Program-made: the position numbers and the translations under genes | Assembly (NCBI RefSeq): GCF_002278075.1 | Contig: NZ_CP022990.1 | Span: 1,860,001 to 1,924,000, forward strand | DNA length: 64,000 bases | Source of the DNA: Paraburkholderia aromaticivorans | Lineage (GTDB): Bacteria; Pseudomonadota; Gammaproteobacteria; Burkholderiales; Burkholderiaceae | Reading direction: 5' to 3' | Notes under the pieces: model-generated | The model's input: only the letters and a program-made list of their open reading frames with translations | Databases searched by the model: none | What the model was told of the DNA's origin: nothing | Shown: one piece after another, positions 2,392-6,221 of the stretch | How positions within the stretch are numbered: position 1 is the first letter of the stretch | How the letters are laid out: each line of letters opens with the position of its first letter

Positions 2392-3606
2392 TCAAAGCAT
2401 CGAAGCCACCGCGGGCGGCCGCGCGGCGAGCCTCAAATGCTCGACACCGTCGGCGAATGAAAACGTGGGCTGACGCCCATCGCGCATGCGAATGCTGATC
2501 GTCCGATCCCGCTCGTCACGCGAGCCCACCACGACCAGAATCGGCACCTGCTTTTCCCGCGCGTCGACGATCTTCTTCTCCAGCCGCTCTGGCCGGCTGT
2601 CCAGCACTGCCCTGACACCGGCAGCGTCGAGCGCCCGCATGACCTCCTGCGCATAAGACAGATTCGCATCGCTAATCGTCGCCACCGCGACCTGCTCCGG
2701 AGCCAGCCATACCGGCAACCGTCCCTCGTGATGTTCGAGCAGCATCGCGATGAATCGCTCCATGCTGCCAAGCACCGCGTGATGGATCATCACCGGCCGC
2801 TCGCGCTCGTTACGCTCGTTGACGAACTCAGCGTCGAGCCGCTCGGGCAGCACGAAGTCGAGCTGAATCGTGCCGCATTGCCAGCTGCGCGCGCGGGTGT
2901 CTATCAAATGGAACTCGAGTTTCGGCCCGTAAAAAGCACCCTCGCCTTCGACCACATCGAACTCCAATCCGGCCGCGCGCGCAGCGTTCGCCAATGCGTC
3001 CTCCGCGCGATCCCACGTTTCGTCGCTGCCTGCGCGCATCGCCGGGCGCGTCGCGAGCGCGACCTTGAACTCGGGAAAACCGAGGTCCGCGTAGACCGCA
3101 CGCAATAGCGTGCAGAACCGGCCCACTTCCGATTGGATATGCGTTGGCATGCAGAACACGTGCGCATCGTCCTGCACGAAAGCGCGCGTGCGCTTGAGTC
3201 CTTCGAGCGAGCCCGAAGGTTCATCGCGATGACAGGCGCCGAACTCGCTATAACGCACCGGCAACTCGCGATAAGAGCGCACGCGCTGATTGAAAACCTG
3301 CACATGACAGGGGCAGCTCATCGGTTTAAGGCAGAGCGCGCGGCCTTCTTCCGCGTCGGCCAGCGAATACATCGCCGCGCCGAACTTCTCCCAATGCCCG
3401 CTCTTTTCCCATAACGATCGCGCCAGCAATTGCGGCGTGCGAATCTCGCGAAAGCCCGCGCGACGCATGCGGGCACGCACATAATCTTCGAGCACGCGAT
3501 ACAGCTCCCAGCCGCGCGGGTGCCAGAAGACCATGCCGGCGCCTTCTTCCTGCTGATGGAAGAGGTCGAGTTTATTGCCTAATACACGATGGTCGATGTC
3601 GTTCAC
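2392..3606 (-). CDS. Threonyl-tRNA synthetase-like protein lacking TGS and editing domains
   Basis: 404-residue class II aminoacyl-tRNA synthetase, against about 640 for standard ThrRS. It contains only the catalytic core (about 1-300) and anticodon-binding domain (about 305-395). The N-terminal TGS and Ser-editing domains are missing by design, since the ORF starts cleanly. Motif 2 region ACHRDEPSGSLEGL and motif 3 region HHAVLGSMERF are present. All three zinc ligands of ThrRS appear kept: Cys98 in MSCPCH, His149 in QDDAHVF and a His in PVMIHH. I chose GTG at 3606, preceded by GGAG. A Thr-rich leader peptide and a hairpin lie 60-205 bases upstream, so expression is probably attenuated by charged tRNA-Thr. 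Without editing it may mischarge Ser unless corrected in trans. It may be a spare synthetase for threonine starvation or for tolerance to ThrRS inhibitors; this is inference. Confidence 0.85.
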   Translation of the reverse strand: MNDIDHRVLGNKLDLFHQQEEGAGMVFWHPRGWELYRVLEDYVRARMRRAGFREIRTPQLLARSLWEKSGHWEKFGAAMYSLADAEEGRALCLKPMSCPCHVQVFNQRVRSYRELPVRYSEFGACHRDEPSGSLEGLKRTRAFVQDDAHVFCMPTHIQSEVGRFCTLLRAVYADLGFPEFKVALATRPAMRAGSDETWDRAEDALANAARAAGLEFDVVEGEGAFYGPKLEFHLIDTRARSWQCGTIQLDFVLPERLDAEFVNERNERERPVMIHHAVLGSMERFIAMLLEHHEGRLPVWLAPEQVAVATISDANLSYAQEVMRALDAAGVRAVLDSRPERLEKKIVDAREKQVPILVVVGSRDERDRTISIRMRDGRQPTFSFADGVEHLRLAARPPAVASML

Positions 3607-3665
3607 GACTTGCTCCGTTTGATCGGTTAGCACTGGTGGATGCCGCAAACGGAGGACCAGAAACG

Positions 3666-3700
3666 CCAAAGGCCCCGTCCGTTTCCGGCGGGGCCTTTGG
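3666..3700 (-). terminator. Attenuator hairpin between Thr leader peptide and ThrRS-like gene
   Basis: Perfect 12-bp stem CCAAAGGCCCCG / CGGGGCCTTTGG on the minus strand, followed by CGTTTCTGG. It sits 24 bases after the stop of the Thr leader peptide and about 60 bases before the ThrRS-like start, the position expected for a transcription attenuator. The U-run is short, which weakens it as a pure intrinsic terminator. A competing pairing is possible: GGCGGG in the leader (3754-3749), just after the Thr codons, with CCCGCC (3692-3687) in the 5' arm. Confidence 0.7.
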
Positions 3701-3724
3701 TGGGTTTGCCACTGCTTCTTGCTG

Positions 3725-3811
3725 CTAGCGCGTGCAACCTCCAGACGACCCGCCTGCGAAGGTGGTCGTCGTGGTGGTGACGGCAGCGAAGGGAATCGAG
3801 TGGAAGTCCAT
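3725..3811 (-). CDS. Threonine-rich leader peptide (attenuator)
   Basis: 28-codon ORF reading MDFHSIPFAAV, then six consecutive Thr codons (ACC ACC ACG ACG ACC ACC, residues 12-17), then FAGGSSGGCTR and TAG. A seventh Thr is residue 27. An in-frame TAA lies four codons before the ATG, so this ATG is the only sensible start. The design matches amino-acid-operon leaders such as E. coli thrL: ribosomes short of charged tRNA-Thr would stall on the Thr run and change folding of the downstream RNA, which contains a strong hairpin and then the ThrRS-like gene. No good Shine-Dalgarno is visible. The likely promoter would start RNA within a couple of bases of the ATG, so translation may be leaderless. 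Confidence 0.75.
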   Translation of the reverse strand: MDFHSIPFAAVTTTTTTFAGGSSGGCTR

Positions 3812-3819
3812 GGATCCAC

Positions 3820-3847
3820 ATTAAACGATCTGGCGAGGATGCGTCAA
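3820..3847 (-). promoter_or_regulatory. Probable sigma-70 promoter of the Thr leader / ThrRS-like unit
   Basis: On the minus strand TTGACG (3847-3842), a 16-base gap and TTTAAT (3825-3820) make a reasonable sigma-70 promoter. Transcription would start near 3813, immediately before the leader-peptide ATG at 3811. Confidence 0.45.
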
Positions 3848-3874
3848 TCGCATTCTCGACATGCTCCGGGCCGA

Positions 3875-5414: not shown

Positions 5415-6221
5415 ATGTTTACCGAGTACATCGTCAAGTGGGATCTGCGGCAGGACGGCGAACCGATTCGCACGCACAGCAGCCGGCTACTGCCCGTGCG
5501 CCACCACGGCGCGCCGGCGATGCTTAAAGTCGCACTGGAACCGGAAGAGAAATTCGGTGCGCGGTTGATGGTGTGGTGGGAGGGCGAAGGCGCGGCCCGC
5601 GTACTCGCACACGATGCAGACGCAATCCTGCTCGAGCGCGCGCAAAGCAGCCATGCGCTGGCGGACATGGCTCGCACCGGCAACAGCGATGCCGACAACC
5701 GCGCGATCGACGTTCTCTGCGCCACCGCCGCGCGGCTCCACGCGCCGCGAAGCAAACCGCTGCCGGAACTGATCGGCTTGCCGCGCTGGTTCGCGAGCCT
5801 GTGGCCTGCTGCGCAGAACCACGGCGGTTGGTTGCAGGACAGCGCGGCCGTCGCCCGAGCCCTCCTTGCCGCGCCACAGGACCCCGTGGTGTTGCACGGC
5901 GACATCCATCACGGCAACGTACTCGATTTCGGCCCACGCGGCTGGCTGGCCATCGACCCCAAAGGTCTCTACGGCGAGCGCGGATTCGACTACGCGAACA
6001 TTTTCTGCAATCCGGACGACGCGTCGGCGTCGAGAGCGGGATGGTTCGAGCGTCGCGTCGAACGGGTTGCGCGAATGGCCGGGCTCGACCGGCGCCGTTT
6101 GCTGCAATGGATCCTGGCGTGGTCCGGATTGTCCGCAGCGTGGATTCTCGAAACGGGCGAATTGCCCGGCATCGATAGGGAAATCGGCAGATTGGCTGCC
6201 GAGGCGCTCGGACGCGCCTAA
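5415..6221 (+). CDS. Aminoglycoside/hydroxyurea phosphotransferase-like kinase, APH(6) family
   Basis: 268 residues, like streptomycin 6-phosphotransferase StrB/APH(6). The catalytic loop is HGDIHHGNVL (161-170) and the metal-binding Asp is in IDPKG (180-184). The N-terminus has HSSRLLPVRHHGAPAMLKV with the ATP lysine. A perfect AGGTGA ribosome site lies 7 bases before the ATG. Chromosomal homologues in soil proteobacteria are often cryptic, so a resistance phenotype is not implied. It could equally phosphorylate an endogenous small molecule. Confidence 0.8.
   Translation: MFTEYIVKWDLRQDGEPIRTHSSRLLPVRHHGAPAMLKVALEPEEKFGARLMVWWEGEGAARVLAHDADAILLERAQSSHALADMARTGNSDADNRAIDVLCATAARLHAPRSKPLPELIGLPRWFASLWPAAQNHGGWLQDSAAVARALLAAPQDPVVLHGDIHHGNVLDFGPRGWLAIDPKGLYGERGFDYANIFCNPDDASASRAGWFERRVERVARMAGLDRRRLLQWILAWSGLSAAWILETGELPGIDREIGRLAAEALGRA

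Follow-up and report, generated by a model that had tools for sequence, protein, structure and literature searches.

In the 64,000-nucleotide stretch of Paraburkholderia aromaticivorans DNA analysed here (contig NZ_CP022990.1, positions 1,860,001 to 1,924,000; hereafter the window), the gene for a short threonyl-tRNA synthetase (ThrRS) is preceded by a 5' region which we read, with a probability of roughly 0.85, as a ribosome-mediated leader-peptide attenuator that would sense the charging of tRNA-Thr and control this spare, editing-free enzyme. That the ribosome stalls on uncharged tRNA, which way the switch turns and what it does for the cell are proposed below from the sequence and its comparison across relatives. 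A first-pass annotation of the window had described an open reading frame (ORF) of 28 codons with six consecutive Thr codons, followed by a perfect 12-bp hairpin ahead of the synthetase start, and had interpreted this arrangement as an attenuator of the thrL/hisL type. Our results confirmed that the observation is real and conserved, and they support the attenuator interpretation.

Both the leader ORF and the hairpin lie in the window as described (Table 1). The hairpin arms, CCAAAGGCCCCG and CGGGGCCTTTGG, pair perfectly over 12 bp and give a terminator-like structure with a 3-U tail, and the 212-nt fold of leader and hairpin reaches z = -3.96, with none of 200 shuffles equally good. We number the pairing elements along the transcript, where region 1 is the Thr run, region 2 begins 6 nt past it, regions 3 and 4 are the two hairpin arms, and regions 5 and 6 follow the hairpin, the latter containing the Shine-Dalgarno (SD) sequence. 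A 9-bp helix between CTCCGTTTG and CAAACGGAG, overlooked by the first-pass annotation, covers the SD in the window. Moreover, folding the leader in its two states revealed an antiterminator competing with the hairpin, which had been left undemonstrated before.

The comparison rests on 92 short-ThrRS loci, namely 99 loci with an intact start less 7 duplicates (judged on 300 nt around the start), where the truncated loci L049 and L154 are excluded and two others with one in-frame stop inside the match (L158 and L182) are retained. Relatives lacking both the Thr run and the hairpin, which the first-pass annotation had named as the finding that would count against it, do not occur in this set: 90 of the 92 loci have an ORF in which 7 codons include 4 or more Thr (5 or more in 82), and all 92 show the hairpin with its core CCCCGCCGG..ACGGACGGGG or a close variant, the position in L026 being set by pattern. 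Of the two non-conforming loci, L173 keeps the Thr run and has lost the early stop, and L183 has scattered Thr only. Among mixed full-length thrS genes taken as controls, at least 4 Thr per 7 codons are reached in 5 of 100 loci and at least 5 in none; in the same genus the corresponding numbers are 17 and 0 of 21, the 17 being explained by a conserved ORF, MTPRTLTETTSERR, that precedes these genes, and the short-ThrRS hairpin core is found in 0 of these 21 loci. An RNA model, R1, was built from 32 leaders and run over 144 genomes of the genus, where, among the matches listed, those scoring 85 bits or more come from the 55 genomes with the short gene, all of them and no others; the model is partly trained on those leaders, and in two genomes, G124 and G015, the leader has become separated from the gene. 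No Rfam family reaches its gathering score in the window, and a T-box was set aside as a candidate on this ground. The Rfam family RF00506 (Thr_leader) aligns to window positions 3663-3796 over model positions 1-118 of 118, with 17.9 bits against a gathering score of 55 and an E-value of 0.53, which alone is chance level.

An antiterminator rivalling the hairpin is present in every clade in folds running from the end of the Thr run through the 5' arm of the hairpin. The upstream sequence captures that arm, with clade means of 10-14 of its last 15 nt paired; in 20 of the 22 folds shown (1-2 per clade), GGCG(GG) or GGUGGG pairs with the arm, while in L174 and L178 the pairing is shifted. In 52 loci GGYGG begins 6 nt past the final codon of the Thr run; in 35 it abuts the run, and most of those loci have one more Thr codon at that place; the remaining 5 differ. 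Over 32 aligned rows the 2:3 helix has 94.8% of its cells paired, against 34-64% when slid, and matched pairs exceed mismatched ones over 15 clades (p = 0.014). For the hairpin the count of cells with changes on both sides is 29, compared with 11.2 for shuffled alignments, and none of 500 shuffles reaches it. The sole change on both sides of the 2:3 helix, GGUGGG:CCCACC in the Azospirillaceae locus L078, is kept at the cost of one hairpin pair.

Besides these two helices, region 5 is able to pair with the hairpin loop and 3' arm (region 4), and some clades also allow it to pair with the SD region (region 6), so that a translational layer is likely. In tests of matched against mismatched pairs across the 15 clades, p is 0.00005 for 5:6 and 0.006 for 4:5; with region 4 extended to the whole loop, 0 of 20000 permutations do as well for 4:5 and 79 of the 92 loci beat their own shuffles at 0.05. 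With arm 3 taken, the predicted accessibility of the SD rises in 73 of the 92 loci and in 14 of the 15 clades (p = 0.0015), for example from 0.17 to 0.65 in Burkholderia-like and from 0.17 to 0.48 in Caballeronia-like loci. We read the element as a dual switch, acting on transcription and translation with a weight that would depend on lineage. In the window's clade the translational layer is likely, and presumably it extends to the window itself, where hiding of the SD is clear and its opening is weakly predicted.

The switch would then work as follows. With ample Thr-tRNA the ribosome would traverse the leader, 3:4 would form and transcription would stop or leak, the leaked transcripts having their SD concealed by 5:6. 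With scarce Thr-tRNA the ribosome would stall at the Thr run, 2:3 would form and break 3:4, and the released region 4 would pair with region 5, leaving the SD exposed. In the window's clade the translational part would be at least as likely as termination, given the poor U tail.

Table 1. Elements of the short-ThrRS locus in the window, in order of position.
Feature	Position	Strand	Basis
Short (editing-free) threonyl-tRNA synthetase, 404 aa, GTG start	2392..3606	-	ORF, Pfam, TIGR00418, structure match, tree
Region 6, CAAACGGAG, contains SD CGGAG (3613-3617)	3613..3621	-	folds, accessibility
Region 5, GGTCCTCCGTTTGCGG, complements hairpin loop and 3' arm; SD region via CTCCGTTTG	3643..3658	-	pairing tests
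Hairpin, 12 bp (region 3 arm 3689-3700, region 4 arm 3666-3677)	3666..3700	-	fold, covariation
CCCGCC, antiterminator 3' strand, on 5' side of hairpin	3687..3692	-	folds, paired cells
Region 2, antiterminator 5' strand, GGCGGG (3749-3754) and following	3728..3754	-	folds, paired cells
Region 1, Thr codons 12-17 of the leader, ACC ACC ACG ACG ACC ACC	3761..3778	-	sequence
Leader peptide ORF, MDFHSIPFAAVTTTTTTFAGGSSGGCTR, 28 codons	3811->3725	-	sequence and comparison
-10-like hexamer TAATGT (TACTGT in many relatives)	3818..3823	-	sequence and spacing, putative
-35-like hexamer TTGACG, presumed leader promoter	3842..3847	-	TTGAC position conserved; sigma-70 pattern

A related element stands before a second gene family. 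In 16 further genomes of the genus, which have no short ThrRS, R1 scores 69.7-83.5 bits (among the matches listed), and the 11 such loci inspected have a Thr-run leader (e.g. MNAHILTTTTTTTASGGS) ahead of an isochorismatase-fold cysteine hydrolase of PF00857, as assigned by scanning two of the proteins against Pfam; no NCBIfam model scores above its cut-off for the hydrolase. At E 1e-50 the hydrolase is found in 17 of the 144 genomes, each with an R1 match just upstream by coordinates, the match in the seventeenth (G121) scoring 49.7 bits. None of the 17 is among the 55 genomes with the short ThrRS (hypergeometric 1.5e-4, phylogeny ignored). GGCGGG begins 6 nt past the final Thr codon in the 11 inspected loci, and at the hydrolase loci matched 4:5 pairs exceed mismatched ones (p = 0.0001). 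Moreover, of 8 close hydrolase relatives (52-63% identity) in named plasmid records, 7 combine a hairpin with a Thr leader (5-6 Thr per 7 codons), namely those of Pantoea sp. SOD02 (L322), Duffyella gerundensis (L323), Pantoea sp. At-9b (L324), B. cenocepacia (L325), P. agglomerans (L327, L333) and Pantoea sp. SS70 (L334); the Aeromonas caviae locus (L326) has neither, and 0 of 5 distant hydrolases (31-39% identity) have a Thr leader. E. coli genomes gave no match to the Pantoea hydrolase leader region. In Pantoea and Duffyella R1 reaches 13.5-33.5 bits, a weak signal given that it can score as much as 25.8 bits when one and the same hairpin is read from its opposite strand, and the leaders there were read directly from ORF and hairpin. 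In L322, L323, L324, L327 and L333 the hairpin is followed by a T run of 1-2, and a CUCCGUU-type segment faces the SD, an arrangement that would be in keeping with control of translation. Altogether the related switch on the hydrolase suggests a small gene set induced by low charging of Thr-tRNA.

The codon usage of sensor and enzyme also differs. ACC makes up 395 of the 621 Thr codons in the leader runs (64%), 73 of 945 in the 92 short-ThrRS genes (7.7%) and 1197 of 3349 in flanking ORFs (36%), the paired test over 91 loci giving p = 4e-15 for loci that are related; in full-length thrS of 21 same-genus genomes it is 135 of 518 (26%). The window gene has ACC at 1 of its 11 Thr codons, a proportion equally low in 2 of 262 ORFs of its own genome (20 stretches of 20 kb plus the window), and these sampled stretches of the genome hold tRNA-Thr anticodons GGT, CGT and TGT. 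The Thr content of the core is 2.3% in 52 short and 3.6% in 21 full-length ThrRS, a comparison repeated within the genus because the mixed full-length set is confounded by base composition. In the light of selective tRNA charging theory, this split fits a sensor of the ACC-reading tRNA together with a gene for the enzyme whose translation can go on while that tRNA is uncharged: being Thr-poor and almost without ACC, the synthetase gene could be translated in the very state that stalls its ACC-rich leader. With ACC in the sensor and ACG in the enzyme, the theory becomes testable in one gene pair.

Several results weigh against this reading or against parts of it. The covariation of the 2:3 helix is weak (a single cell with changes on both sides, a count matched in 19 of 500 shuffles), because the helix hardly varies; antiterminator folds are 0.4-3.6 standard deviations better than shuffles as clade means; and co-varying pairs in the hairpin number 5 against 4.4 in shuffles (253 of 500), which is not above shuffles. 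After the window hairpin there is no U tract, the longest T run in the window's clade is 3, and a consensus scan made no call on the window hairpin. As to the translational layer, the extension of region 4 was chosen after looking at the data, the first 4:5 test in the window's clade is no better than shuffles (median p 0.19), 5:6 beats shuffles in 33 of the 92 loci and in 0 of 5 Bradyrhizobium-like ones, and the p-values are optimistic since the clades are related. The predicted opening of the SD is small in the window's clade (0.18 to 0.23) and in the window (0.16 to 0.22), and it is seen in 6 of 11 hydrolase loci of the genus and in 2 of 7 named records (L322, L334). ACC is not avoided in L078 (9 of 14), L184 (6 of 9) and L178 (3 of 7), nor in the hydrolase coding sequences (48 of 128), so that its avoidance is no general mark of genes under the switch.

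A rival explanation is plain transcription attenuation of the thrL/trpL type, in which only 1:2, 2:3 and 3:4 count and neither region 5 nor the SD helix plays a part. Behind the hairpin the longest T run is 5-7 in 18 Burkholderia-like loci; beyond Burkholderiaceae, 12 loci have longest runs of 3-7, ten of them with at least 4. In addition, the hairpin covaries, 5:6 is not seen in Bradyrhizobium-like loci, and the Rfam Thr_leader model aligns at full length, though far under its cut-off. Against it, the window's clade has a longest T run of 3, five of the seven named hydrolase leaders have one of 1-2, and 4:5 and 5:6 co-vary across clades; we hold this simpler scheme to be less likely than not. 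For the thrL comparison of the first-pass annotation this means a reservation: with so poor a U tail, plain transcription attenuation in the thrL manner is questionable for the window's clade. That the Thr run and the hairpin are fortuitous, an ordinary intergenic terminator beside a chance ORF, is scarcely credible: a Thr-containing ORF and a terminator do also lie between a tRNA gene and the housekeeping thrS, and antiterminator energies are near those of shuffles, but the arrangement co-occurs with the short gene in 90 of the 92 loci, its helices compete, and it recurs on a second gene family.

The enzyme itself accords with what the first-pass annotation had proposed, namely a ThrRS that keeps its zinc ligands and lacks the TGS and editing domains. 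In a Pfam scan the short ThrRS shows tRNA-synt_2b and HGTP_anticodon alone, from which the absence of the TGS and editing domains follows, and the complete set of zinc motifs KPMxC, DDAH and HHA is found in 89 of the 92 loci. The window protein scores 459.5 bits against TIGR00418 (thrS), above the curated cut-off of 383.65, and resembles solved ThrRS chains, including chains of about 400 residues without N-terminal domains. Its start is placed at the GTG at 3606 behind the SD; a 475-aa ORF from 3819 is an upstream extension of the same gene. As the genome also encodes a full-length thrS, the window enzyme would be a spare editing-free ThrRS, with activity and role predicted from its sequence. 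An ObaO-like resistance residue was considered and rejected. The change Gly463 to Ser (G463S) is a marker of resistance to obafluorin and borrelidin, according to a part of PMC11252418, which also mentions Asn at the Ala316 site in housekeeping ThrRS. No such change of Gly463 occurs: Gly is retained in 88 of the 92 short ThrRS, where the FYG motif used to assign the equivalent position (in place of an alignment to the E. coli enzyme) was located, the motif being unlocated in 4; the Ala316-equivalent residue is variable.

What the spare enzyme is for can be weighed in several ways. A backup for simple threonine starvation, like B. subtilis thrZ and with no antibiotic tie, is quite possible, if short of an even chance: the sensor is specific to Thr codons, the gene is Thr-poor (2.3% against 3.6%) and mostly avoids ACC, and G463S is absent. 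On the other hand, a second ThrRS yields no extra threonine, the distribution is patchy (55 of the 144 genomes), and the related sensor guards a hydrolase without evident link to starvation. Immunity to natural ThrRS inhibitors, where uncharged tRNA-Thr would serve as alarm and the response would be a bypass enzyme (the short ThrRS) in one genome and, in another, a hydrolase that might destroy the inhibitor, is also possible, though we hold it with some reserve. Two unrelated effectors under related sensors that never occur together in a genome of the genus (0 of 17) would fit it, as would the reported precedent of Streptomyces TrpRS1; the missing G463S speaks against it, the hydrolase passes no NCBIfam cut-off, and the mutual exclusion may reflect shared ancestry. 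A paralogue for zinc limitation under Zur, like Anabaena T2 or the paralogues of Haas et al., appears very improbable: such paralogues do exist and keep their zinc ligands (parts of PMC2770081 and PMC4787780), but the conserved control element here is a Thr leader. The most far-reaching possibility, which we regard as speculative and rather unlikely as it stands, is that a portable alarm for tRNA-Thr charging, a 4:5-coupled attenuator, stands before two exclusive effectors and so forms a hidden regulon for defence against ThrRS inhibitors in Alpha-, Beta- and Gammaproteobacteria, working on translation only in Pantoea. If the attenuator reading holds, soil and plant bacteria of several classes would answer low charging of tRNA-Thr with a non-proofreading synthetase or with a hydrolase, and the latter could point the way to a new compound directed at ThrRS or to a new step of detoxification. 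The editing-free enzyme moreover raises the question of Ser-for-Thr mistranslation in starvation, or of editing in trans by the housekeeping ThrRS.

Leader-peptide attenuators, and their use on spare synthetases, are of a known kind. The open-access literature searched yielded no description of a short ThrRS under a Thr leader; the hydrolase was not a subject of that search. The nearest case is the auxiliary indolmycin-resistant TrpRS1 of S. coelicolor, reportedly under ribosome-mediated attenuation (Vecchione and Sello 2010): it is likewise a spare synthetase gene under an attenuator for its own amino acid, but it concerns Trp and Actinobacteria, while here the enzyme is editing-free, an SD switch may follow the hairpin, and a related element guards a hydrolase. 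B. subtilis thrZ is a second ThrRS gene induced when tRNA-Thr is uncharged, as proposed here, through a T-box, which binds uncharged tRNA directly without a leader peptide, in contrast to the leader peptide of the present element. Enterobacterial thrL has a Thr-codon leader and competing helices as well, but controls the thr biosynthesis operon instead of a synthetase. Leader peptides on synthetases or their paralogues are shared by E. coli pheM-pheST, where one precedes the synthetase gene, and by hisS*/hisZ, in both cases for other amino acids. For bacilli, His leaders before the hisS*/hisZ paralogues are described in a portion of PMC2965389, and T-boxes before thrZ in a portion of PMC2494555. 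As stated in a section of PMC4787780, Anabaena T2 is a duplicated, editing-poor ThrRS, stress-induced and forming a heterodimer with T1 that edits in trans; it resembles the short ThrRS as an editing-poor duplicate and differs in its control by Zur and zinc and in an editing domain that is impaired, where here it is absent.

The short ThrRS was searched for with the query P0001. Two of its 55 occurrences in the genus are cut at residue 67; these are L049 (G124), whose attenuator match lies about 5 kb off on the other strand, and L154 (G015), whose match lies on another contig. In the family sample it is found in 45 of 398 genomes, genus members counted in; in the class sample the own genome alone of 369 passes E 1e-147, a strict limit at which distant copies could be missed; and in the phylum sample 10 of 398 pass E 1e-146, including one full-length enzyme (G1116). 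Among the loci outside Burkholderiaceae, L063 of Bradyrhizobium and L078 belong to Alphaproteobacteria, and at the protein level Acidobacteria are among the matches. In a tree of 33 short and 28 full-length rows the short ThrRS forms a single group with support 100/100, separate from the full-length enzymes, which indicates an old paralogue and not a recent truncation. Phage-borne copies were considered and rejected: 7 viral-contig stretches fit a pattern and none encodes a relative. In the plasmid collection, 569 Klebsiella plasmid records match ThrRS at less than 60% identity, several among those listed being annotated thrS; possibly this is the plasmid paralogue hinted at for pLVPK in a passage of PMC2770081.

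The housekeeping thrS has a leader-like element of its own. The short Thr-containing ORF MTPRTLTETTSERR or a close form precedes full-length thrS in all 21 loci of the genus (L001 and L280-L299; L001 is that of the own genome, contig C1, about 2.4293-2.4297 Mb), and a Thr-containing ORF also precedes it in L112, L119 and L121. The 8 housekeeping loci displayed have this ORF followed by a strong hairpin and a long U tract, and an upstream tRNA gene was called in 3 of the 3 loci scanned; ORF and hairpin may be a second Thr attenuator, or merely the terminator of the tRNA gene. The statement of the first-pass annotation that ThrRS of Gram-negative bacteria is not usually controlled in this way may accordingly fail in this genus, as its housekeeping thrS is also preceded by a conserved Thr-containing ORF.

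The promoter of the short-ThrRS leader was not called by a consensus scan. TTGACG and TAATGT are presumably its -35 and -10 elements, an assignment that follows the sigma-70 pattern, and TTGAC begins 35-37 nt ahead of the leader ATG in 80 of the 92 loci. From the positions of these hexamers the transcript would start at or next to the leader ATG, and the leader peptide is probably leaderless. A transcript starting at the leader ATG is described for trpL of Sinorhizobium meliloti in a part of PMC7298713; this likeness extends to the predicted start, while trpL belongs to a Trp biosynthesis operon.

A similar architecture of hairpin and leader is found before a DUF2917-like gene in 8 loci (L309, L311-L315, L317 and L318), one of them in the own genome (L311, C2:2947798-2947911, minus strand). 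The leader peptides there have no Thr run (MLTHLFIANAITHPKRAMSGWPLGVCVR and similar), and two of the DUF2917-like proteins match PF11142. Around the ThrRS locus in the window, positions 1638-2300 downstream of the gene hold a LysR-like fragment, under the Pfam cut-off, and short ORFs; upstream of the leader, past GNAT and flavin-reductase genes, a gene like the APH(6)-family aminoglycoside phosphotransferases occupies 5415-6221 on the plus strand, with 277 bits in Pfam and scores under the NCBIfam cut-offs.

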